A stretch of 64,000 bases of DNA from Hyphomicrobiales bacterium (GTDB taxonomy: Bacteria > Pseudomonadota > Alphaproteobacteria > Rhizobiales > Beijerinckiaceae): positions 1-64,000 of the forward strand of contig JAIXYZ010000007.1 of assembly GCA_027489955.1 (NCBI GenBank), in the 5' to 3' direction. Of this stretch, positions 38,687-51,289 are shown one piece after another. Below the pieces are notes generated by a model. That model had not been told where the DNA came from and ran no database searches. It worked only from the letters and a program-made list of their open reading frames with translations. The translations under genes and the position numbers were made by a program. How positions within the stretch are numbered: position 1 is the stretch's first letter; every line of letters starts with the position of its first letter.

Positions 38687-40179
38687 TCGAATTCATCGAC
38701 GGCCTCTGGATCGCGCTCACGCCGATCAACCTGCTCTACTGCTTCGCCGGCGTGCTGGTGGGCACGCTGGTCGGCATCCTGCCGGGCCTCGGCCCGGTGC
38801 CGACGCTGGCCATGCTCCTGCCGCTGACCTTCTTCGCGCCGCCGGTTTCGGCCCTGATCATGCTGGCGGGCATCTATTACGGCGCGCAGTACGGCGGCTC
38901 GACGACCGCGATCCTCGTCAACCTGCCCGGGGAGAACTCGTCGGTCGTCACATGTCTCGACGGCTACCAGATGGCGCGCAAGGGCCGGGCCGGTCCCGCG
39001 CTCGCGGTCGCTGCCCTGTCCTCGCTGTTCGCGGGCGTCGTGGCGACCCTGTTCATCGCGCTGTTCGCTCCCCCGCTCGCCAACGCCGCGCTCCTGTTCG
39101 GCCCGGCCGATTACTTCTCGCTGATGGTGCTCGGCCTGGTGACGTCGATCGTGCTGGCCCAGGGTTCGCTCATCAAGGCCTTCGGCATGATCCTGGCCGG
39201 GCTCCTGCTGTCGCTAGTGGGCGTCGACGTCAATTCCGGCCAGGCCCGCATGACCCTCGGCATCACCGAGTTGCGCGACGGCATCGGCTTCGTGCCGCTG
39301 GCCATGGGCCTGTTCGCCGTCGCCGAGATCCTGAAGAACCTGGAAGAGCCGGAGGACCGCTCGATCCTGAACAAGAAGGTCACCTCGCTCTGGCCCAGCC
39401 GCGACGACGCGCGCCGCTCCGCCCCTGCGGCCGCCCGGGGCACCGCGCTCGGCTGCATCCTGGGCCTTCTGCCCGGCGGCGGCGCCATGCTGTCCTCCTT
39501 CGCCGCCTATACGCTGGAGAAGCGCATATCCCGGGAGCCTTCCCGCTTCGGGAAGGGCGCCGTGGAGGGCGTAGCCGCGCCCGAGGCCGCCAACAATGCC
39601 GGTGCGCAAACGTCCTTCATCCCGCTCCTGACGCTCGGCATCCCGGCCAACCCCGTGATCGCGCTGGTCGCGGGGGCGATGACCATCCAGGGCATCCAGC
39701 CGGGCCCCGAGATCATGACCCGCAGCCCCGACCTGTTCTGGGGCCTCGTCGCGTCCATGCTGGTCGGCAACGTCATGCTGGTCATCATCAACCTGCCGCT
39801 GATCGGCATCTGGGTGCGGCTGCTCAACGTGCCGTACCAGTGGCTCTATCCCAGCCTGCTGGTCTTCTGCTGCATCGGCGCCTTCAGCCTGAACAACTCG
39901 ATGTTCGACGTCATGCTGCTGCTGATCTGCGGACTGGTCGGCTACGCGCTGATGAAGTGGCGGTGCGAGCCGGCCCCGCTCCTGCTCGCCTTCGTCCTTG
40001 GTCCGATGATGGAGGAATATCTGCGCCGGGCGCTGCTTCTGTCCCGCGGCGACGGCATGGTGTTCCTCACGAGCCCGATCAGCCTGACGCTGCTGATCAT
40101 GGCGGCCCTGCTGCTGGTCCTGGTCATGCTGCCGGCCTTCAAGATCCGCCGGAAGGAGGCGTTCGCCGAGCCCGGTTGA
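38683..40179 (+). CDS. tripartite tricarboxylate transporter large permease (TctA), 1
   Basis: This 498-residue permease has about twelve transmembrane segments and the two TctA signatures: LVGILPGLGPVPTLAML near the N-terminus and the mid-protein GLLPGGGAMLSSFAAY with EAANNAGAQTSFIPLLTLGI. It forms the channel of an ion-driven carboxylate importer with TctB and the binding protein at 37126. The gene ends seven bases before the convergent PrpD copy 5 gene, which marks the border to cluster B. Confidence 0.95.
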   Translation: MIEFIDGLWIALTPINLLYCFAGVLVGTLVGILPGLGPVPTLAMLLPLTFFAPPVSALIMLAGIYYGAQYGGSTTAILVNLPGENSSVVTCLDGYQMARKGRAGPALAVAALSSLFAGVVATLFIALFAPPLANAALLFGPADYFSLMVLGLVTSIVLAQGSLIKAFGMILAGLLLSLVGVDVNSGQARMTLGITELRDGIGFVPLAMGLFAVAEILKNLEEPEDRSILNKKVTSLWPSRDDARRSAPAAARGTALGCILGLLPGGGAMLSSFAAYTLEKRISREPSRFGKGAVEGVAAPEAANNAGAQTSFIPLLTLGIPANPVIALVAGAMTIQGIQPGPEIMTRSPDLFWGLVASMLVGNVMLVIINLPLIGIWVRLLNVPYQWLYPSLLVFCCIGAFSLNNSMFDVMLLLICGLVGYALMKWRCEPAPLLLAFVLGPMMEEYLRRALLLSRGDGMVFLTSPISLTLLIMAALLLVLVMLPAFKIRRKEAFAEPG

Positions 40180-40186
40180 GCCACGC

Positions 40187-41521
40187 TCAGGCCGGGCGGG
40201 CCATTTCCAGGACGGCGCCGATATCCGGCTCGTCCTCGATGCGGCGCAGGCGGCCGAGGAGCGCCGCCGCCCTCTCCTCCCCGAGCACGGGAACGACCAG
40301 GGCCAGGAACTTCCGGTCGAGCGCCGCGTCGTCCATCGGATTGGCGAGCGAACCAAGCGCGCTGCCGACGCTGTGGACGTGCTCGTCGCCGCCGGCGAGG
40401 CGAAGCCGCATGTCCGCCTGCTCCTTCCGGTAGCCCGGCTCGATGCGGATCGACACGCGCTCCCTGAGGGCGGCATAGCGGGGATCGTCCGCGGCGGCCT
40501 CGGAAAAGGCGGCAAGCGGCGTGGCGCCATGCACGAGGCCGACGGCCGCGCAATGGGCGAGGCTGAACTTGGTCTCCAGGCCCGTCGTCGGACGGGCGAC
40601 GCCCGCCAGGTCCACCGCGATCGGAGGCACGACGAGCTCGATCGCGGCGATGTCCGCCGGCTGCGCGAACGGGCGCAGGGCGATCGCGCAGTCGATCGTG
40701 GCATGGGTCACCACCGCGCAAGGATAGGGCTTGAACGTGTTGAGCTCGATCTCGAAGCCGCTGCCGAGACCGGCGGCGAGGCCCGACAGGTCCTCCACGT
40801 CGCTGAAGACCGGTCCCAGCCCCTTGCGGCCTTCCAGCGGCGCGGCCGGACCGCTGAAGCCGCCGGCCGCCATCAGTGCGGCATAAAGCCCGCTCTGCGC
40901 GGCCCGGCCCGGCGTCAGCGCCTTGCACATCGTGCCGTACATCTCCCGCAGCCCGCTGGACTGGTTGGCGGCGATGCCGAAGGCGTCCACCATCCGCGCC
41001 GCGTCGAGCCCCATCGCCCGCGCGACCGCCGCCGCCGCGCCGACCGGGCCCGCGGCGCCCGTGACGTGCCAGCCCCGGTTGCCCGAGCCGAACACGACGT
41101 TGGCGATCCGGCACGCGACCTCCACGCCCGACACATAGGCGGCCATGAACGTGCGCCCATCGAGCGTCCTTCGACCCGCAAGCGCGAACAGCGCGGGCAG
41201 GACAGGGCCGCTGGGGTGGATGTTAGTGCGCTTGAGCTGTGTGGAATCGAAGTCGAGCACCGCCGACGCGATCCCGTTGACGAGCGCCGCGCTCGCCGCA
41301 TCGGACCGGTCGCGGCGCCCCAGGAGCACCGCATCCCCCTCGACGCCGAGCAGCGCCAGGCCAGCGACCGTCGCCTCCACCGCCTCGTGGCTGCCGCCGG
41401 CCACCGTGACGCCGACGAAGTTGACCAGCGAGCGCAGCGCGGCCGTGCGGGCGGGCGGAGTGATCGCGCCGGCATCGAGCGCGACGGCGTAGCGGGCGAG
41501 CGCGAGGGACAGGTCGGACAT
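40187..41521 (-). CDS. MmgE/PrpD family protein (copy 5)
   Basis: This 444-residue MmgE/PrpD protein has ALVNGIASAVLDFDS, GWHVTGAAGPVGAAAAVA, ALTPGRAAQSGLYAA and FKPYPCAVVTHATID. It belongs to cluster B: it lies downstream of an SDR gene and a Bug-type binding protein in the same direction. The substrate is unknown; a lyase, dehydratase or isomerase acting on the carboxylate imported by that binding protein is plausible. Confidence 0.88.
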   Translation of the reverse strand: MSDLSLALARYAVALDAGAITPPARTAALRSLVNFVGVTVAGGSHEAVEATVAGLALLGVEGDAVLLGRRDRSDAASAALVNGIASAVLDFDSTQLKRTNIHPSGPVLPALFALAGRRTLDGRTFMAAYVSGVEVACRIANVVFGSGNRGWHVTGAAGPVGAAAAVARAMGLDAARMVDAFGIAANQSSGLREMYGTMCKALTPGRAAQSGLYAALMAAGGFSGPAAPLEGRKGLGPVFSDVEDLSGLAAGLGSGFEIELNTFKPYPCAVVTHATIDCAIALRPFAQPADIAAIELVVPPIAVDLAGVARPTTGLETKFSLAHCAAVGLVHGATPLAAFSEAAADDPRYAALRERVSIRIEPGYRKEQADMRLRLAGGDEHVHSVGSALGSLANPMDDAALDRKFLALVVPVLGEERAAALLGRLRRIEDEPDIGAVLEMARPA

Positions 41522-41541
41522 GGTCAAGCCTTGCTCGGTCT

Positions 41542-42294
41542 TCAGTGGCAGGAGAAACCGCCATTCACGTGGATCGCCTGGCCGGTGACGTAGCGGGCAC
41601 CGGGACCGCAGAGCATGCGCACCATGGCGGCGACCTCCCAGGGCTGGCCGCGGCGGCCGAGCGGCGGCAGGCGCTTGCCGGCGAAGGCGACGCCGTCGTG
41701 GCGCGTCATGGCGGAGGCGGCGGTATCCATCGCACCCGGCACGACGCAATTGCAGGTGATGCCCTCGGCCGCCAGATCGAGGGCGACCGCCTTGGTCAGG
41801 CCCGCGAGCCCGGCCTTGGCCGTCACGACATGGGCGCGGTTCGGAGCACCGGTATGTCCCGTCTCGCCGCCGATATTGACGATCGTGCCGCGCGAGGAAC
41901 GCCGCAGGTCCGGCAGCGTCTCCTGGATCGTGTTGAACGCCCCGTCGAGGACGATGCCGAGAATGGCCTGCCACCTCTCGAGCGGGATCGCATCCAGCGG
42001 CTGCTCCTCGCGCACGGCGGCGCAGTTGACCAGGATGTCGATGGGTCCGAGCGTGCCGCGGATGGCCTGGACCGCATCGGCCACGGCCGGGCGGTCGCGC
42101 ACGTCGAACGTCCATGCGCCCGCACGGCCGCCGCGCTGGCGGATGGCGTCAGCCACGTTTCCCGCGGCCTCGACGCCGGAATGACCGCAGACGGCCACCG
42201 CCGCGCCGCCCTCCGCGAGTGCCTCCGCGATGGCGCGGCCGATATTGCGCGTTGCGCCGGTGACCAGCGCCACCGTCCCGACGAGTTCGTTCAT
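41542..42294 (-). CDS. short-chain dehydrogenase/reductase with altered catalytic Tyr
   Basis: This 250-residue SDR has a normal cofactor motif (TGATRNIG), NCAAVRE and a C-terminal YVTGQAIHVNGGFSCH. The catalytic YxxxK is VVTAK here (HVVTAKAGLAGLTKA): Lys is kept, Tyr is replaced by Val, with His just before. A natural SDR subgroup with the same replacement exists. The start codon at 42294 is preceded by a terminator-like hairpin separating it from the upstream binding-protein gene. Confidence 0.87.
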   Translation of the reverse strand: MNELVGTVALVTGATRNIGRAIAEALAEGGAAVAVCGHSGVEAAGNVADAIRQRGGRAGAWTFDVRDRPAVADAVQAIRGTLGPIDILVNCAAVREEQPLDAIPLERWQAILGIVLDGAFNTIQETLPDLRRSSRGTIVNIGGETGHTGAPNRAHVVTAKAGLAGLTKAVALDLAAEGITCNCVVPGAMDTAASAMTRHDGVAFAGKRLPPLGRRGQPWEVAAMVRMLCGPGARYVTGQAIHVNGGFSCH

Positions 42295-42319
42295 GGCAGT
42301 CCCTCCTCGTCCGGGCACG

Positions 42320-42348
42320 AAAAAGGGCGCGCCCCGACAGGCGCGCCC
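42320..42348 (-). terminator. intrinsic terminator between binding-protein and SDR genes
   Basis: On the minus strand a perfect 9-bp stem (GGGCGCGCC / GGCGCGCCC, 6-base loop) is followed by TTTTT. It starts 17 bases after the binding-protein stop, so it should reduce read-through into the SDR and PrpD genes and raise the relative level of the binding protein. Confidence 0.75.
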
Positions 42349-42365
42349 CGATTCAGGCGATGGGA

Positions 42366-43361
42366 TTATTGCAGGCCCATGTCCTGGAGAACGGCCTCCA
42401 GATCGGTCTTCTCCTTGGCGCAGTAGGACGCGAAGTCGGCGCCCTTCAGCAGCAGGATCGACTGGTAGGAATCCTCCGCGGACTTGCGGAATTCCGGATC
42501 GTTCACGGTCTTCTCGAGGACGCCTTCCCAGTAGGCGACGGCCTCGGCGGGCATGCCCTTGGGACCGATCACGCCGCGCCAGTTGGAGACCACGGTGTCG
42601 ATGCCGAGCTCCTTCCAGGTCGGTACGTTCGACACCGCGCCCGGCAGGCGCTCGGGGCTGCTGACCGCGAGCAGGCGGAGCTGGCCTGCCTCGACCTGCT
42701 TCACCAGGCTGCCGACGCTGGCAGGCACGATGTCGATATGCTTGCCGAGCACCGCGGTGCGCGCCTCGCTTCCCGCCTGGAAGATCACCGTCTTCAGGCG
42801 CTTCACGTCGATCCCGGCCTTCTTGGCGGGGATCGCGATGGCCTGGTGGTTGGAATTGCCGCGGCTCGTGGCGATGCCGATCGACAGCGATTGCGGATCG
42901 GACTTCAGCTTGTCGAGAAGGTCCTTGCCGGTCTTGAGCGGGGAGTCGGGATGGACCGCGATGCCGATATACTCGGCGAGCACGTGGCCGAGCATCGTCA
43001 CGTCCGGGCAGCCGATGGGCGAGCGCCCGGCGAGATTGTTGGAGACCATGCTGGCGCCCGCGATGGCGATCGCATTGCCGCTGCCCGCATGCGTGTTGTT
43101 CAGGTAGGCCAGGCCCACCGCGCCGCCGCCGCCCGGCTTGTTCACCACCGACACGTTGGCCTTCACAGTGCCCTGCTGCTTCCACATGCCCTGGAACTGG
43201 CGGGCGAGCTGGTCGGGCGCGGTGCCGGGGCCGACCGTCACGAGGATCTCGACGTCCTTCGTCGGCTGCCACTGGGCGAAGGCGGGGCCGGCGACGAGCG
43301 AGGCCGAAACGATGGCGGCCTGCCAGAGGCGGGCGCGGATACGGGCTCCTGATGGACGCAT
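42366..43361 (-). CDS. tripartite tricarboxylate transporter binding protein (TctC/Bug family), 2
   Basis: This 331-residue periplasmic receptor has a signal peptide (LWQAAIVSASLVAGPAFAQW) and Bug-like VNKPGGGGAVGLAYL and GVIGPKGMPAEAVAYW. The ATG at 43361 has AGGAGG upstream; an in-frame ATG nine codons earlier lacks one. The gene starts 29 bases from the AT-rich operator. Its likely TctBA partners are 3 kb away (46546, 47029) on the other strand. Confidence 0.9.
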   Translation of the reverse strand: MRPSGARIRARLWQAAIVSASLVAGPAFAQWQPTKDVEILVTVGPGTAPDQLARQFQGMWKQQGTVKANVSVVNKPGGGGAVGLAYLNNTHAGSGNAIAIAGASMVSNNLAGRSPIGCPDVTMLGHVLAEYIGIAVHPDSPLKTGKDLLDKLKSDPQSLSIGIATSRGNSNHQAIAIPAKKAGIDVKRLKTVIFQAGSEARTAVLGKHIDIVPASVGSLVKQVEAGQLRLLAVSSPERLPGAVSNVPTWKELGIDTVVSNWRGVIGPKGMPAEAVAYWEGVLEKTVNDPEFRKSAEDSYQSILLLKGADFASYCAKEKTDLEAVLQDMGLQ

Positions 43362-43389
43362 GGGGATCCTCCTGATTTTTTGTCTCATG

Positions 43390-43408
43390 CAAATATATAT
43401 ATATTTAG
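43390..43408. promoter_or_regulatory. AT-rich palindromic operator OA (cluster B)
   Basis: CAAATATATATATATTTAG contains a perfect 16-bp A/T palindrome. It lies between the GntR/UTRA regulator gene stop and the start of binding protein 2, where the promoter of the binding protein-SDR-PrpD genes must be. A 17/19 match (inverted) is at 46439. Confidence 0.7.
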
Positions 43409-43427
43409 CAGTGAGTCAAAAGGATCG

Positions 43428-44159
43428 TCAGGGCAGCTCTATGCGATAATGAAACTTGTCGCTGCGGCCGACCGTGCGGCGCCATTCCACGACGCCGCTC
43501 TGGCTGCCATAGGCCGTGCGCTCGATAACCATCACGGGCGTGCGCGGCGCGATGCGCAGGAGCGCCGCCTCCTCGTCGCTGGGGCTGCCGGCGCTCAGAA
43601 GCTCCTCGGCCCGGACGACGTGCGAGCCATAGGCCTGCTCCAGCGCCGCATAAAGGCGCTTGTCGTCCAGATCGAGCCGGTCGAGGTTCCGGAAGCGCGC
43701 CTCGTCCAGATAGGACACGTACAGGCAGATCGGCTCGTCGTTGGCGAAGAGGATGCGGCGCACCCGGTAGATCGGCGCCCGCGGCGCGATCCGCAGCCGC
43801 GCCGCCACCTCGGCGTCGCCGTCCTTCAGCAGGACCGTGTCGACATGGTGCGAGCGCGGCGTGATCTTGTCCCTCAGGTCCTCGCTGAACCGGAAGAACC
43901 GCCCGAAGCCGCGGTTGATCGTGTCGAGCCGCGCGACGAACGTGCCGCTGCCCGGCCTGCGCACGAGCAGGCCCTCGCGCACAAGCGCCAGCACCGCCTG
44001 CCGCACGGTGCCGGTGCTGACGGCGAAATGGGATGCCAGCTCAGCCTCGGTCGGCAGGATGTCGCCAGGCTTCCAGCGCCCCGCGTCGAGATCGGCCTTC
44101 AACTGCTGGCGAACGGCCTGGTAGAGCGGAAGGCCAAGCGCTTTGGCGTCGGCGAGCAC
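43428..44159 (-). CDS. GntR-family regulator, UTRA (HutC) subfamily
   Basis: This 243-residue regulator has an N-terminal winged helix (EAELASHFAVSTGTVRQAVL followed by the wing RPGSGTFVA). The C-terminal UTRA ligand-binding domain has the usual PIYRVRRILFANDEPICLYVSYL and PVMVIERTAYGSQSGVVEW pattern. It starts with GTG, GGGAA upstream. It ends the minus-strand operon FAH-decarboxylase-cupin-regulator and is thus autoregulated if it binds the 46439 site. The ligand is probably the imported substrate of cluster B or a metabolite of it. Confidence 0.9.
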   Translation of the reverse strand: MLADAKALGLPLYQAVRQQLKADLDAGRWKPGDILPTEAELASHFAVSTGTVRQAVLALVREGLLVRRPGSGTFVARLDTINRGFGRFFRFSEDLRDKITPRSHHVDTVLLKDGDAEVAARLRIAPRAPIYRVRRILFANDEPICLYVSYLDEARFRNLDRLDLDDKRLYAALEQAYGSHVVRAEELLSAGSPSDEEAALLRIAPRTPVMVIERTAYGSQSGVVEWRRTVGRSDKFHYRIELP

Positions 44160-44187
44160 TGGAAGTTCCCCCGGTATCGGCGCGAGA

Positions 44188-44538
44188 CTACTCGACGAGA
44201 TCGATCTTGATGTCCTCGAACCGGTCCTTGACGGTCAGGAAGATGACGTCCTCGTCGTCGGTCGCCGTGATCGTGTGGACCACATTGGCGGGGATGTAAA
44301 TCACGCCGCCGCGCGTCACCGTCATCTCCTCGTCGCCCACCTTCGCATGCACCGTGCCCTGCAGCATGTAGTTGAACTGCTCGACATTGTGCTTGTGGGG
44401 CTTCGACCCGGTGCCGCGCTTCTTCTCGGCGATCCCGAGGATCATGCGGTCGCCGGTGACCTTCGCCCCGAAGGACGTCGTCACCTTCGGACCGAAAGCG
44501 AAATGCTCCATCTCGTCGAAGCGGAAGAAGTACTTCAT
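44188..44538 (-). CDS. small cupin-domain protein
   Basis: This 116-residue single-domain cupin has the first motif PHKHNVEQFNYMLQG (two His and Glu ligands) and the second PANVVHTITA (last His), which together give a metal site. Small cupins of this sort act as isomerases, dioxygenases or stabilisers; no specific function can be assigned. It lies between the decarboxylase-like and regulator genes, so it belongs to the same pathway. Confidence 0.85.
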   Translation of the reverse strand: MKYFFRFDEMEHFAFGPKVTTSFGAKVTGDRMILGIAEKKRGTGSKPHKHNVEQFNYMLQGTVHAKVGDEEMTVTRGGVIYIPANVVHTITATDDEDVIFLTVKDRFEDIKIDLVE

Positions 44539-44553
44539 GGGAGCCGTCTCCTG

Positions 44554-45549
44554 TTATGCGGCAATGAGTTCGGGAACGAACAGGTCGCGCGGATCGACCT
44601 GCCGGGCGGACAGCCCCTGGCGGAACGAGTACCGGCACAGGGCCTGAAGGGTCCCGGCATTGGCGGCGTATCCGTAGGGCCAGAAATCGGCGCCGAGCGC
44701 CGCGCGCGTGGCGGCCAGTTCGGCGGCAAGGAAGGGCAGCATGACCGGGAGCGAGGGCGCCGCGGCCATCTGCTCCAGGCGCCGGTAGCCCGCGTCCCGG
44801 GACTGGACCAGCGCGGCGTAAAGGCGCGCGGCAAGACCGGGATGGCGCTCCAGCACCTCCCGGCGCACGGCCACCAGATGCATGATGGGGAAAATCCCCG
44901 TTTTGGAGAAATAGGCCTGCTCGGCGGCGCGCGGGTCGGCGAACAGCCGCTTGACCGGAGCCGAGCCGTTGCGGAAGCAGGCCGGCGGTTCGGGCGCGAT
45001 CACCGCGTCGATCTCGCCCGAGGCCAGCATCGCGTCCAGCGTCCGGTCTTCCGGGATCGGCGCGATCCGGTAACCCGGCGCCGGCTCGATGCGGATGCGC
45101 TCCTTGCGCCCGGGCTGGTTCAGGCCGCCCGTGACGTAGGAGACCGATTCCGGATCCAGCCCGAACCCGTCCTGCAGCATGCCGCGCACCCACAGGCCCG
45201 CCGTCATCTGGAACTCCGGGGTGCCGACCGTGCGTCCCGCCAGGTCGGCCGGCGCCTCGATGCCGCGATCGGCGCGGACATACACCGCATCCAGCCGGAA
45301 CGAGCGCGACAGGAAGACGGGCAGCGCCACGTAGGCGCAGGTGCCGCGCGAGACCTGGACCAGGTAGCTGCTGGCGGACAGTTCGCAGATGTCGAACTCC
45401 GCCCGATTCAGCGCCCGCGGAAAGATCTCCGAGGGTGGCAGGGCGAGCATGGCCAGCCGCGCGCCCTCGACGGCAATAGAGCCGTCGAACAGCGCCTCGG
45501 TCCGGTCCGTGCGGCCGCAGGCGAAGGTGAGGGTCGGCTGGGGCGTCAC
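44554..45549 (-). CDS. 4,5-dihydroxyphthalate decarboxylase-like protein (periplasmic-binding-protein fold)
   Basis: The 331-residue product resembles Pht5/4,5-dihydroxyphthalate decarboxylase, a cytoplasmic enzyme of the type 2 periplasmic-binding-protein fold. It shows CELSASSYLVQVSRGT and YVALPVFLSRSFR, the LAGRTVGTPEFQMTAGLWVRG block and GIFPIMHLVAVRRE. No signal peptide is seen, which supports an enzyme rather than a transport receptor. Family members are also mis-annotated as ABC binding proteins, so decarboxylation is inferred. The GTG start at 45549 overlaps the FAH gene's TGA (GTGA). Confidence 0.8.
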   Translation of the reverse strand: MTPQPTLTFACGRTDRTEALFDGSIAVEGARLAMLALPPSEIFPRALNRAEFDICELSASSYLVQVSRGTCAYVALPVFLSRSFRLDAVYVRADRGIEAPADLAGRTVGTPEFQMTAGLWVRGMLQDGFGLDPESVSYVTGGLNQPGRKERIRIEPAPGYRIAPIPEDRTLDAMLASGEIDAVIAPEPPACFRNGSAPVKRLFADPRAAEQAYFSKTGIFPIMHLVAVRREVLERHPGLAARLYAALVQSRDAGYRRLEQMAAAPSLPVMLPFLAAELAATRAALGADFWPYGYAANAGTLQALCRYSFRQGLSARQVDPRDLFVPELIAA

Positions 45550-46385
45550 GCGCCCGGCTCCGCCTTCACGGTGTTTGCGAGCACGCCGATGCCGTCGATC
45601 TCCACCTCGACCCGGTCGCCGGCCTTCATGAACAGCGGCGGCTGGCGGGCGACGCCCACGCCTCCCGGGGTGCCCGTGATGATCACGTCCCCGGTGCGCA
45701 GGGGCGAGAAGCTCGACATGTAGGCGATCAGGGACGGCACGCCGAAGATCAGGTCGGTGAAGGAGGAGTGCTGGACGACCTCGCCGTTGAGCCGGGTGGT
45801 GACGCCGTGATCCTCGATGCGGCCGAACTCGTCGGGCGTGACGAGCCAGGGGCCGAAGGCGCCGGTGCCGGGAAAGTTCTTGCCAGCGGTGAACTGGATC
45901 GTGTGGCGCTGGAAGTCGCGCACGCTGCCGTCATTGTAGCAGGCATAGCCCGCGACGTGATCGAGCGCGTTCTCCTCGGAAATGTGGCGGCCCGGCTTGC
46001 CGATGACGACGGCGAGCTCGCCCTCGAAGTCGAACTTGTCGGAATTGCGCGGCAGGATGAGCGCCTCGCCATGCGCCACCTGGCTGCGGGCGAGCCGCAT
46101 GAAGATCGCCGGCTTCTCCGGCATCGGCCGGCCCATCTCCTGGACGTGGTTGGCGTAGTTCATGCCCACGCAGAAGATCGCGCCCGGCTCCGGCACGACG
46201 GGGGCGTAGCGGATGTCCTCCAGCGGCACTTCCACGGTGCCGGAAAGGTCCGCGCGTGCGAGCGCGGGATCGGCGAGCGCCTCCGTCAGGGTGGGCCAGC
46301 GGCTGCCGGACAGGACGTGGACCCGGTCGCCGACGACGGCGCCGAAGGCCGGCTGCTGACCCATGACGAAACTGACGAGCTTCAC
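45546..46385 (-). CDS. fumarylacetoacetate hydrolase family protein
   Basis: This 279-residue enzyme has the C-terminal FAH domain: metal ligands Glu-x-Glu in FDFEGELAVVIGK, Asp in CYNDGSVRDFQ, and ITGTPGGVGVA. Members hydrolyse acylpyruvates or decarboxylate or hydrate oxo-acids (HpaG/MhpD-related, oxaloacetate decarboxylase-like). It is the first gene of the minus-strand operon and diverges from tctB2 across OB. The ATG at 46385 is the natural start (MKLVSFVMG). Confidence 0.9.
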   Translation of the reverse strand: MKLVSFVMGQQPAFGAVVGDRVHVLSGSRWPTLTEALADPALARADLSGTVEVPLEDIRYAPVVPEPGAIFCVGMNYANHVQEMGRPMPEKPAIFMRLARSQVAHGEALILPRNSDKFDFEGELAVVIGKPGRHISEENALDHVAGYACYNDGSVRDFQRHTIQFTAGKNFPGTGAFGPWLVTPDEFGRIEDHGVTTRLNGEVVQHSSFTDLIFGVPSLIAYMSSFSPLRTGDVIITGTPGGVGVARQPPLFMKAGDRVEVEIDGIGVLANTVKAEPGA

Positions 46386-46438
46386 GGAACGCCTCCCTTG
46401 TATCGTGGGCCTGTTCTAGAGCGACGCCGATGCTTCGT

Positions 46439-46457
46439 CTATATATTTATATATTTG
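46439..46457. promoter_or_regulatory. AT-rich palindromic operator OB (cluster B)
   Basis: CTATATATTTATATATTTG (complement CAAATATATAAATATATAG) lies in the 160-base region between the divergent FAH and TctB2 genes. It differs from OA by two of 19 bases. One copy could control both divergent operons, including the regulator itself. Confidence 0.7.
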
Positions 46458-46545
46458 ACATGCGGTCGCATGCCCCCCTACGGTGCCCGCGAGCCGAAGC
46501 TCGACCTGACAAGGCCGCCATGAGAGCGGCGGGAGGAGATTGCCC

Positions 46546-47013
46546 ATGCAGCGAGGCCTGGCCCTGGCGGCGATCGCCCTTGGCGGCGCCTATCTCGCCC
46601 TCGTGCTGTCCATGCGCGTCGGCGATGTGGAGGACCCCGTCGGTCCGCGCATGTTTCCGCTGATGATCGCCATCGGCATCCTGCTGACCGGCATCGCCAT
46701 GTGGTTCGAACAGGCGGGCAAGCCCGCCGCGGCCCCAGCCGCGCCCATCGATGACGCCGAGCGCGCCCTGCGGCGCAGCCAGGCGATCGCGGTCGCCGGC
46801 GTCGCCGCCGGCGCAGTGGCCTTCATGCTGCTGATGCAGCCGCTCGGCTTCTTCACGGTGGCCACGCTGCTCATGCTCGGCATGCTCACGGCGTTCAACC
46901 GCGGGCGCCATGGCCTCAATGTCGCGGTGGCGGTCGGCGTCTCCGCCGTCCTCTACATCGGCCTGAAGCGCTATCTCGGCGTCGCTCTCCCGAGCGGCAT
47001 CCTCCCCTTCTGA
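46546..47013 (+). CDS. tripartite tricarboxylate transporter small membrane protein (TctB), 2
   Basis: This 155-residue, four-helix TctB-type protein has the conserved GDVEDPVGPRMFPLMIAIG loop (phase-typical GPRxFPxxI). GGGAGGAG precedes the ATG at 46546; an upstream TTG would add two residues. It is followed 15 bases later by TctA2. Confidence 0.88.
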   Translation: MQRGLALAAIALGGAYLALVLSMRVGDVEDPVGPRMFPLMIAIGILLTGIAMWFEQAGKPAAAPAAPIDDAERALRRSQAIAVAGVAAGAVAFMLLMQPLGFFTVATLLMLGMLTAFNRGRHGLNVAVAVGVSAVLYIGLKRYLGVALPSGILPF

Positions 47014-47028
47014 CCGCGAGCGACGGAC

Positions 47029-48543
47029 ATGGAAACCCTCGGCCACGTCATCAACGGATTCTCCGTCGCGCTGCAGCCCATGAACATCCTGTTCGTGTTC
47101 CTGGGCGCGCTCCTCGGCACGATCATCGGCATCCTGCCCGGCATCGGCGCCACCGCGGGCATCGCGCTGCTTCTGCCGCTCACCTTCGGCATGGACCCGG
47201 TCGCCGCGCTGATCATGCTGACTGGCATCTATTACGGCTCGTCCTATGGCGGCACGGCCGCATCCGTCCTCATCAACACGCCCGGCGACGGCACCTCCGT
47301 CATCACAGTGTTCGACGGCTACCCGATGGCGCGCAACGGCCGCGCCGGGGCGGCGCTCGCCGTGGCCGCGGTCGGCTCCTTCGTGGCGGGAACGATCAGC
47401 GTCATCGCGCTCACGCTCCTGGCCGTGCCCTTCTCGGCGGTGGCGCTGAAATTCGGCCCGGCCGAGAACTTCATGCTCATGGCCTTCACCATGACGGCGG
47501 TCGGCTCCTTCACGTCCGGGTCCCTGCCCAAGGGCCTGTTCTCGGCGCTGGTCGGCCTGATGATCGCCACCGTCGGCATCGACCTGCAGAGCGGGCAGGA
47601 ACGCTTCACCTTCGGCATGCCCACCCTGCAGGAAGGCGTGCCGTTCCTGTCGGTCGTCGTCGGCTTCTTCGCCCTGACCGAGGTCGTGTACCAGGTGCTG
47701 GGATGGTATCGCGGCGAGCTGAAGCCGATCCGCATGGAAGGCAAGCTCTGGTGCACGCCCGAGGAATGGCGCCGCTCAATCGGCCCGATCACCCGCGGCG
47801 GCATCATCGGCTTCATCATCGGCGTCTTGCCGGGCGCCGGTGGCGTCATCGCCACCGTGATCTCCTATGCCACCGAGAAGAAGCTCTCCAAGCATCCCGA
47901 GATGTTCGGCAAGGGCGCCATCGAGGGCGTCGCCGGGCCTGAAGCGGCCAACAACGCGGCAACATCCGGCAACCTCGTGCCCCTGCTGACGCTCGGCATC
48001 CCGGGCTCGGGCGTCACGGCGGTCCTGCTGGGCGCCTTCATCATGTACGGCATCCAGCCCGGTCCCCAGCTCATGCAGGAGCGGCCCGACCTCGTCTGGG
48101 GCCTCATCGACAGCATGTATGTGGGCAACGTCATCCTCGTGATCCTGAACCTGCCGCTGATCGGCCTGTTCGTGCGCATCCTCTACCTGCCGGTGGGGAT
48201 CCTCATGTCCGGCATCCTGCTGATCGCGCTCACCGGCGTGTATTCGGTGAACACCAGCGCCACCGAGGTCTACATGGCGATGCTGTTCGCCATCGCGGGC
48301 TTCGCCTTCCGGCGCTACGACATCCCGGTCGCGCCGCTGATCCTCGGCGCCGTGCTCGGCGGGCTCATGGAGCAGGCCTTCCGTCAGGGCATGACGATCT
48401 CCAGCGGCAATCCGTCGATCTTCCTGTCCAGCACGGTCTGCGTGGTTCTGGCCCTGCTCAGCGTCGCCTCGCTGGCGACCCCGGTGCTGCAGCACATGCG
48501 CAAGCGGCGGGACGCGCGTGTGCAGGCCAGCCAGGCCTCGTGA
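47029..48543 (+). CDS. tripartite tricarboxylate transporter large permease (TctA), 2
   Basis: This 504-residue permease has about twelve membrane segments, signature [18 protein letters not shown] near residue 35, and the central [18 protein letters not shown] and [19 protein letters not shown]. It pairs with TctB2 directly upstream and probably with binding protein 2 at 42366. The stop overlaps the next gene start by one base. Confidence 0.95.
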
Positions 48544-49100
48544 TGGACGAGGGCGGCGCAGAACGGCCGCCGCCCCGCAGGGCGCGAAGCCTCGCCCGTC
48601 TCGCGCTTCCCGTCGGGCTGTCCGCGATCGCCGTCGCCGCCAGCGTCGCCCATGCGGGATGGTCCGGCACCGCCGCGGCGGCCATCGGCGCCGGCCCGCA
48701 ACTGGGGACGCTCGCGGTGCGCGTCGGCGCGGCGTTGCTCCTGGCAGCCGTCATCCAGGTCTGGCTCCCGCGCGAACGCATGCGCAGGCTGCTGGGCTCA
48801 GGCCGGGGCATCCTGCCGCTCTTTCTCGCCGGGCTGGTCGGCAGCGTCACGGTCGGCGGCCCGATGACCTCGTTCCCGATCCTGGCTGCGCTCGCGGCGG
48901 CGCAGGTCGAGGCCGGCGCGCTCGTCGCCTTCCTCACCGGCTGGAGCCTGCTCGCCGTGCAGCGGATCATCGTCTGGGAATGGCCGCTCCTCGGCCCGGA
49001 ATTCGTCCTGGTCCGCCTGGCCGCCTCCTTCGCGCTGCCCGTGGTGGCCGGGCTCATCATGCGCGCCCTGGTTCGCCGGGCCGCCGGAGGCCCGGCATGA
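48543..49100 (+). CDS. half-size permease-like membrane protein A
   Basis: This 185-residue integral membrane protein has about five hydrophobic segments and the motif LVGSVTVGGPMTSFPILAA. The C-terminal part reads GWSLLAVQRIIVWEWPLLG. It resembles one half of a YraQ/DUF318-like permease, in which a Gly-Pro-rich segment repeats in each half. The ATG at 48543 overlaps the TctA2 stop (TGATG). Its neighbour at 49097 is homologous, so the two probably assemble as a heterodimer. The transported substrate is not known. Confidence 0.75.
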   Translation: MDEGGAERPPPRRARSLARLALPVGLSAIAVAASVAHAGWSGTAAAAIGAGPQLGTLAVRVGAALLLAAVIQVWLPRERMRRLLGSGRGILPLFLAGLVGSVTVGGPMTSFPILAALAAAQVEAGALVAFLTGWSLLAVQRIIVWEWPLLGPEFVLVRLAASFALPVVAGLIMRALVRRAAGGPA

Positions 49101-49579
49101 ACGCGATCGACATCGCGCTCGTTATCGCCGCCATTGCGGGGCTGGCCGTCACGGCGCTGCTGGACCGGGACCGGCTGCGGGAGGCGCTCGCCATCGCCGG
49201 TGCCAACACCCGCGCCGTCGCCCCCGCAGTCGTGCTGATGACGCTGGCCGCAGCGCTGCTCCTGCCCGTCGTGCCCACGCGGCTGGTCTCGGGGCTGATC
49301 GGGCCGGAATCGGGCGTCCTTGGCGTCCTCGTCGGGGCGCTGGTGGGCGGGATCATCCCGGGCGGCCCCATGGTGTCGTTCCCGATCGTCGTCGTGCTCC
49401 AGGGCGCGGGCGCGGGCCAGGCCCAGCTCATCGCCCTCCTGTCCGCCTGGTCGGCGATCGCGCTCCACCGGGTCGCCGCCTTCGAGCTTCCCATGATGGG
49501 CCCGGCCTTCGTGCGCCACCGGCTCGTCGCCTCCCTGCCGCTCCCGGTCCTCGCCGGGCTGGCGGCGCTCGTCTTCTGA
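49097..49579 (+). CDS. half-size permease-like membrane protein B
   Basis: This 160-residue membrane protein has five hydrophobic segments; LVGGIIPGGPMVSFPIVVV and SAWSAIALHRVAAFELPMMG match the corresponding motifs of the preceding protein. The start overlaps the previous stop (ATGA), so the products are made together. The pattern fits a pair of repeats encoded as two genes instead of one. It is the only clearly new-looking transport component in cluster B. Confidence 0.75.
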   Translation: MNAIDIALVIAAIAGLAVTALLDRDRLREALAIAGANTRAVAPAVVLMTLAAALLLPVVPTRLVSGLIGPESGVLGVLVGALVGGIIPGGPMVSFPIVVVLQGAGAGQAQLIALLSAWSAIALHRVAAFELPMMGPAFVRHRLVASLPLPVLAGLAALVF

Positions 49580-49583
49580 ACGG

Positions 49584-50687
49584 ATGGACGCCATGAAGAT
49601 CGCCCGCATCGAAGCCACCGTCCACAAGGTCGCCCTGCCGCTGCCGGTCGATCCCGCACGGCGCATGGCCTGGGGCTTCGTGTTCTGCGCGGTCACGACC
49701 GAGGACGGGCGCACGGGCCAGGGCCTGACGGGCAAGATGCTGCCCTTCGCGGTGGCGGACGTGCTCACGCGGGAAATCCAGGACCTGGTGAAGGGCATGG
49801 ACCCGCGCCGCACCGAGGCGATCCACCACGCCGTCTGGCGCAAGCTGAACATGCGCAGCCAGACGGGAGCCATCGTCCACGCGCTCTCGGCGCTCGACAT
49901 CGCCCTGTGGGACCTGGCCGGCCAGGAGGCCGGCCGGAGCATCGCCAGCCTGCTGGGAGGCCATGCCGAGGACGCCGAGACCTACTGCACGTTCGGGCTC
50001 GCCGAATATTCCCGGGACGAACTTGTCGCGGCGGCGCGGGACTGCGCCGCCGCCGGCCATACCGGGCTGAAGATGGTGGTGGGCGCCGCCAGGGGAGGCT
50101 GGCGCGAGGACCTCGCGCGGCTGCGGGCCGTGCGCGATGCGATCGGGCCGGACGTCGCCCTGATGATGGATGCCAATTACTGCCTCGACCCGTTCCAGGC
50201 CCGCAGCCTCGCCCAGGCGGCCGAGGAACTGGACATCGCCTTCTTCGAGGAGCCGCTGCACCAGAACGACGCCCGCGCCCTCGCCGAGCTGCGGCACCTC
50301 ACGCGCATTCCCATCGCCGCCGGCCAGATGGAGGGTCATCGCTGGCGCTATCGCGAGCTGATCGAGCACCGGGCGGTGGATATCCTCCAGCCCAATTGCT
50401 GCTACGGCAGCGGCTATACCGAGACCCGCAAGGTCTGCCACGCGGCGCAGCTCTTCAACCTGCCGCTGGCCGTCGGCGGGGGCTGGCCTTTGTTCAACCT
50501 CCACCTGATGGCGGGGATGATGAATGGCGGGCCGGTCGAGCTGCACGCCGTCACGGCGGCGGTCTGCGAGCACGTCTTCCCCGGCGCGCCGCCGTCCCGG
50601 GCCGGGCGCATGGCGGTACCCGACGCGCCGGGCCTGGGCGTGCGCGCCGATCCCGACGTCCTGAAGGACACGCTTGTGCGTCCTTGA
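49584..50687 (+). CDS. enolase-superfamily protein (mandelate racemase/MLE fold) with reduced active site
   Basis: The product is 367 residues. Metal ligands are present in MMDANYC, FFEEPLHQ and AAGQMEG. The second Lys of the KxK motif is replaced (GLKMVVG instead of KxKxG). The position of the opposite-face His is taken by a glycine run (AVGGGWPLF), and ILQPN replaces ILQPD. Dehydratase or racemase activity by the standard mechanism is therefore doubtful; only one base, the first Lys, remains. It is the last gene of the TctBA2 operon. Either of the ATGs at 49584 and 49593 could be the start. Confidence 0.8.
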   Translation: MDAMKIARIEATVHKVALPLPVDPARRMAWGFVFCAVTTEDGRTGQGLTGKMLPFAVADVLTREIQDLVKGMDPRRTEAIHHAVWRKLNMRSQTGAIVHALSALDIALWDLAGQEAGRSIASLLGGHAEDAETYCTFGLAEYSRDELVAAARDCAAAGHTGLKMVVGAARGGWREDLARLRAVRDAIGPDVALMMDANYCLDPFQARSLAQAAEELDIAFFEEPLHQNDARALAELRHLTRIPIAAGQMEGHRWRYRELIEHRAVDILQPNCCYGSGYTETRKVCHAAQLFNLPLAVGGGWPLFNLHLMAGMMNGGPVELHAVTAAVCEHVFPGAPPSRAGRMAVPDAPGLGVRADPDVLKDTLVRP

Positions 50688-50712
50688 GCGGAACGAAGAA
50701 GGCCGCGGAACG

Positions 50713-50750
50713 AAAAAGGCCCCGGAACGCGGCGTGCGGTCCGGGGCCTT
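50713..50750 (-). terminator. intrinsic terminator of tRNA-Val (bidirectional stem)
   Basis: A perfect 11-bp inverted repeat (AAGGCCCCGGA / TCCGGGGCCTT) is followed on the minus strand by TTTTT. It lies 9 bases beyond the CCA end of tRNA-Val. The same stem could also slow transcription leaving cluster B on the plus strand, where the T-tract is poor. Confidence 0.8.
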
Positions 50751-50758
50751 CCTGAAAA

Positions 50759-50833
<75 letters not shown>

Positions 50834-50929
50834 GGCGCGCCCTGTCGGGCACGATCGGTTGGCGGGGCTATACCGGCTCGCGCCAGCCGACGCAAGCCGC
50901 CTTCGGCAGGCCCCGGCAAGCCGCCTTCG

Positions 50930-51289
50930 TCAGGCGGCGAGCATCTTCTCGACCTCGTTCACGAGGTCGCGCAGATGGAACGGCTTCGACAGGATCTTCG
51001 CATCCTTGGGCGCGTTCGAATCGGGATTGAGCGCCACGGCCGCAAAGCCGGTGATGAACATGACCTTCATGTCCGGGTCGAGTTCGGTGGCGCGGCGCGC
51101 CAGCTCGATCCCGTCCATCTCGGGCATGACGATATCGGTCAGCAGGAGCTCGAAGGGCTCTTCCCGCAGGCGGTTATACGCCGACAGGCCGTTGTCAAAC
51201 GAGGCGACCTCGTATCCGGCGTTCTGCAACGCCTTCACGAGGAAGCGGCGCATGTCGTTGTCGTCTTCGGCAAGCAGGATCTTGGTCAT
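50930..51289 (-). CDS. cpdR: cell-cycle response regulator CpdR
   Basis: This 119-residue stand-alone receiver domain has acidic pocket AEDDNDM, phospho-Asp in LLTDIVMPEMDG and the conserved Lys in LSKPFHL. The sequence KALQNAGYEVASFDNGLSAY and KVMFITGFAAVALN is typical of CpdR. In Caulobacter, unphosphorylated CpdR directs ClpXP to the cell pole and licenses degradation of CtrA and PdeA; CckA/ChpT phosphorylates it. The ATG at 51289 gives the family length. Confidence 0.93.
   Translation of the reverse strand: MTKILLAEDDNDMRRFLVKALQNAGYEVASFDNGLSAYNRLREEPFELLLTDIVMPEMDGIELARRATELDPDMKVMFITGFAAVALNPDSNAPKDAKILSKPFHLRDLVNEVEKMLAA

Follow-up and report, generated by a model that had tools for sequence, protein, structure and literature searches.

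The window, meaning the whole 64-kb stretch of DNA that was analysed (64,000 nucleotides, 69.8% GC), carries a gene cluster with two A/T tracts, termed here site 1 and site 2. The features of the cluster are as follows:

40187–41521, minus strand: MmgE/PrpD-family protein (weak profile match, below cut-off)
41542–42294, minus strand: SDR oxidoreductase (profile search)
42324–42349, minus strand: intrinsic terminator in the TctC/SDR gap (11-pair stem, 4-nt loop, T run)
42366–43361, minus strand: TctC-type binding protein (profile search), downstream of site 1
43390–43408, plus strand: site 1, the 19-mer CAAATATATATATATTTAG
43392–43419, minus strand: sigma-70-like TctC promoter, with TTGACT (43419–43414), a 16-nt spacer and TATATT (43397–43392)
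43428–44159, minus strand: GntR/UTRA regulator, 243 aa (Pfam GntR 1.8e-22, UTRA 5.3e-32)
44188–44538, minus strand: cupin protein of the FAH operon (profile search)
44554–45549, minus strand: NMT1/THI5-like protein of the substrate-binding-protein fold family (profile search)
45546–46385, minus strand: FAH-family hydrolase (profile 1.1e-69), first gene of the operon ending with the regulator
46437–46459, minus strand: site 2, GTCAAATATATAAATATATAGAC, which includes the 19-mer CAAATATATAAATATATAG (46439–46457)
46455–46484, plus strand: possible TctBA-MLE promoter, with TTGACA (46455–46460), an 18-nt spacer and TACGGT (46479–46484)
46546–47013, plus strand: TctB (profile search)
47029–48543, plus strand: TctA (profile search)
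48543–49579, plus strand: two overlapping small membrane-protein genes (48543–49100 and 49097–49579), read from the sequence
49584–50687, plus strand: enolase-superfamily (MR/MLE) enzyme, nearest to sugar-acid dehydratases but below equivalog cut-offs

The gene arrangement agreed with that of the original prediction. Site 2 lies in a 160-bp divergent region, from which one operon is read on the minus strand in the order FAH (from 46385), NMT1-like protein, cupin and UTRA regulator (ending at 43428), and the other on the plus strand in the order TctB, TctA, two small membrane proteins and MLE; the regulator gene is, as claimed, the last of its operon. Neither small membrane protein had a family match above cut-off in the profile search. 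The best profile of the FAH protein was 2,4-didehydro-3-deoxy-L-rhamnonate hydrolase, again below the equivalog cut-off, and the FAH, MLE and SDR proteins together may resemble a non-phosphorylative sugar-acid pathway spread over three units. The three gene sets serve the uptake, and probably also the degradation, of a sugar acid or other organic acid. The genome contains a second FAH-family gene (G000:C2:210470-211315, locus L208), whose product is 62% identical to that of the cluster. The NMT1-like protein was considered as a guide to syntenic clusters and found uninformative, belonging to a large paralogous family with at least eight members per genome in genus g28 (e.g., G154, G167 and G587).

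Both 19-mers were found where they had been predicted, and re-reading confirmed that they are identical at 17 of 19 bases. They also proved to be, as claimed, almost purely A/T in GC-rich DNA: the longest A/T run reaches 17 bases, against 7–10 in Markov simulations (n = 20), and dinucleotide-preserving shuffles of the window (n = 100) contained no match to the 19-mer at up to 3 mismatches. At the same tolerance, sites 1 and 2 are its sole places in the whole genome (3,130,975 bases searched, 97% complete), a third match being site 1 read backwards rather than a separate place; the tracts thus do not recur in unrelated promoters of this genome, and the recurrence that had been named as refuting the prediction is not seen. 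A/T-only runs of at least 16 bases occur three times in the genome, namely, at site 1, at site 2 and as AAAAATAAATAAAAATT, which sits on a different contig from the cluster. The proposed search of related genomes covered 298 genomes of the family. This one alone has two copies of the pattern; single copies at up to 2 mismatches were present in 14 others, a rate similar to that of the control, the reversed pattern.

That the tracts are chance or relic low-complexity sequence might be argued from their resemblance to each other, which is only mildly surprising once A/T and dinucleotide content is granted (p = 0.033). Against this stand the zero matches expected from the shuffles, the length of the A/T run relative to the simulations and the position of both tracts at promoters of one cluster, and we regard this as the least probable of the explanations considered. 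MucR/Ros-type, IHF and H-NS-like proteins prefer A/T-rich DNA in GC-rich genomes, and a different protein of this sort could in principle bind the tracts. A global binder, however, should have many sites, and the genome has two at 3 mismatches, making this explanation very improbable as well. Dyad symmetry was dropped as evidence for operators, as it did not exceed chance for tracts of such composition (p about 0.2).

A gap of 66 bp separates the regulator gene from TctC and contains site 1, which overlaps the spacer and the -10 hexamer of the TctC promoter. This promoter has 10 of 12 consensus bases in the promoter scan and is the sole well-scoring one within 40000–51000. Within site 1, positions 43391–43406 form a perfect 16-bp palindrome, AAATATATATATATTT. 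Site 2 is an imperfect dyad, in which a 17-bp A/T tract is flanked by outer GTC/GAC arms. The description as an AT-palindrome operator needs amending: both tracts are better assigned to a larger operator type with multiple half-sites than to simple palindromes. Site 2 overlaps TTGACA, the -35 hexamer of the possible TctB promoter; the -10 hexamer TACGGT is weak, and this promoter was read from the sequence, not being called by the promoter scan. In its spacer, adjoining site 2, lies the perfect 6-bp dyad CATGCGGTCGCATG (46459–46472; arms CATGCG and CGCATG around GT). This palindrome was rejected as a candidate: its exact copy is single in the window, but near-matches occur at chance level. Overall, gene order and promoter positions support the claim that each tract lies at a promoter region of the cluster.

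The same positions permit a simpler reading, in which the tracts are plain promoter elements, such as an A/T-rich -10 or UP-like sequence, without a dedicated regulator. Site 1 does include the -10 hexamer of the one promoter that scores well in the region, and TTGACA adjoins site 2. Yet no other promoter in the 3.13-Mb genome has such a tract, and the comparison with related regulators given below also argues against this reading. As to the extent of control, the original prediction had the binding protein, SDR and PrpD genes regulated jointly. Site 1 is indeed placed at the TctC promoter, but the terminator follows TctC, so that from site 1 the SDR and PrpD genes could at best be controlled in part, via read-through. 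This terminator is strong and likely sets an excess of the binding protein over SDR-PrpD.

The regulator has an N-terminal GntR winged helix and a C-terminal UTRA domain, both far above curated cut-offs, and its nearest solved structures are YvoA/NagR. NagR uses Arg38 and Arg48 to read two guanines, with Gly69 as the anchor of the wing (PMC4333415); the aligned residues of the regulator are Ala39, Thr49 and Gly70. The genome encodes three UTRA proteins, of which the other two carry Arg at the second of these positions. The tree places the window regulator among the arginine-less proteins (support 100/100), where its long branch falls outside the clades with Gln and with Val/Ile at position 49, and its union with the Val/Ile type in one clade was rejected (p-AU 0.02). 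Searches of the one other genome of the genus, the family and class samples, plasmids and genome contigs yielded no ortholog above 41% identity, the best plasmid match being about 36%, and for this reason no phylogenetic footprint is available for the two sites.

The comparison was therefore made with the upstream regions of about 150 regulator homologues, all at or below 41% identity. Those that lack the guanine-reading arginines carry dyad-like, A/T-rich sites a short distance upstream of the regulator gene itself. With Gln49, TCTTATATAAGA is present upstream at up to 2 mismatches in 54 of 66, often followed by ATAAGA; it equals the published SdhR motif, TCTTATGTCTTATATAAGACATAAGA (PMC4494728). 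With Val/Ile49, TCATATATATGA is found at the same tolerance in 62 of 68, mostly with outer half-sites at a distance of 8 bp. Neither sequence occurs in any of the nine Arg49 relatives. Many of the Val/Ile loci come from Bradyrhizobium, and each of the two types, Gln and Val/Ile, corresponds in essence to one clade; therefore, the link between residue and half-site rests on few independent changes. Two small Pro/His49 groups (A[PH]GT and SPGT) have the AAGA operator form; loci L106, L107 and L173, UTRA relatives whose recognition helices read A-[PH]-G-T-[AT]-R and whose operators are AAGA-type, lie on the Val/Ile side of the tree and lend themselves to probing the residue-49 link. In Caballeronia (L158 and L159), two Val/Ile-type operators, at about 6310 and 8566 in L158, are placed one before an MFS-amidohydrolase unit and the other before a chemoreceptor gene, a layout which suggests that the neighbouring UTRA regulator jointly controls chemotaxis and uptake. 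The STSTMRK relatives (L009 and L012), which also have Thr49, lent no support, their upstream A/T tracts being unlike each other.

Across the 64-kb window, a matrix of 50 distinct Val/Ile sites, none from this genome, scored highest at site 2 (46437–46459, minus strand; 20.3, the best elsewhere being 12.6). The score exceeded those of column-permuted matrices (p = 0.001, 0.004 and 0.009 for three column ranges) and of shuffled versions of the site with its dinucleotides preserved (p = 0.003), so the fit does not come from A/T content alone. Site 1 scored weakly (2.7, p = 0.05–0.09). In all, nine settings of the matrix were compared, combining three site sets with three column ranges; with the mixed set, site 2 reached p = 0.007–0.02 and site 1 nothing, and neither site fitted the Gln49/SdhR-type matrix. 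The genome has no good match to the SdhR core motif, nor is there a GTCTTNTATAAGAC-like site near the cluster. Site 2 resembles what related regulators use as operators in more than its A/T content, and relatives have matching sites adjoining UTRA genes; these points render plain promoter elements an unlikely explanation, albeit the strongest of the three alternatives.

The reading we prefer, with a probability of roughly 0.8, is that both tracts serve as operators for the UTRA regulator whose gene they flank, as predicted from their sequence and setting. The regulator belongs to an arginine-less HutC/UTRA branch using A/T-rich, multi-half-site operators of the SdhR kind. Bound as a dimer or a pair of dimers, it would cover the spacer and -10 of the TctC promoter at site 1, and at site 2 it could block both the FAH-NMT1-cupin-regulator operon, i.e., its own expression, and the divergent TctBA-permease-MLE operon. 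Release would come from a substrate-derived effector or pathway intermediate bound by the UTRA domain, and a tripartite transporter would thus be co-ordinated with dehydratase-, dehydrogenase- and hydrolase-like sugar-acid enzymes split over three units. Repression and autoregulation are both likely, the latter because the tracts lie in promoters, the regulator is the last gene read from site 2 and the sites of relatives stand upstream of their own genes. The original prediction is largely borne out, subject to the corrections given above and to the weak score of site 1 on the relatives' motif. We infer binding, sign of control, effector and pathway from the sites, their uniqueness, gene order, the missing arginines and the relatives' sites. 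A DNA loop between the sites, whose centres are 3,049 bp apart, is possible, and nothing in the analysis supports it.

More tentatively, and with rather more doubt than confidence, residue 49 may set the half-site within the arginine-less branch (Gln: AAGA; Val/Ile: ATGA). The Thr49 regulator would then be an end case reading a G/C-free 17-bp operator, probably via DNA shape and contacts to the flanking GTC/GAC. What was a sequence hunch is now a testable regulator–operator pair, tied to UTRA regulators whose operators were omitted from the published specificity analysis, from which SdhR was excluded (PMC4494728). The Gln, Val/Ile and Thr types offer natural material on how an arginine-less recognition helix reads A/T-rich DNA.

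The consensus operator of the HutC/UTRA subfamily is GT-N4-AC (PMC4494728), which is absent from both sites as read from their sequences. NagR/YvoA and DasR, the HutC members with solved structures, have the fold, domain order and wing glycine in common with the window regulator, for which their mode of repression is also expected; however, both guanine-reading arginines and the GT-N4-AC operator are missing here. The Val/Ile49 relatives, from Bradyrhizobium, Ralstonia, Rhodopseudomonas and others, adjoin MFS or TRAP transporters at several of the examined loci and share an A/T-rich operator, GTCATATATATGACTATATGA, immediately before the regulator gene. It can be aligned with site 2 without gaps, whereas the half-site ATGA is absent from site 1, and the window regulator differs from that clade by its Thr49. 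SdhR, likewise a published exception to the consensus, is a GntR-UTRA protein of the same subfamily; its operator combines an A/T-rich dyad with additional half-sites, as here, and regulators like it have the equivalents of NagR Arg38/Arg48 replaced, as does the window regulator. In contrast, the SdhR type pairs Gln49 with a core GTCTTATATAAGAC operator and AAGA half-sites, while the window sites contain neither this core nor AAGA and the Thr49 regulator falls outside that clade. In sum, the regulator is an unusual variant within a known family, not a system of a new sort, and its two probable sites add a new operator variant to the SdhR-like UTRA branch.
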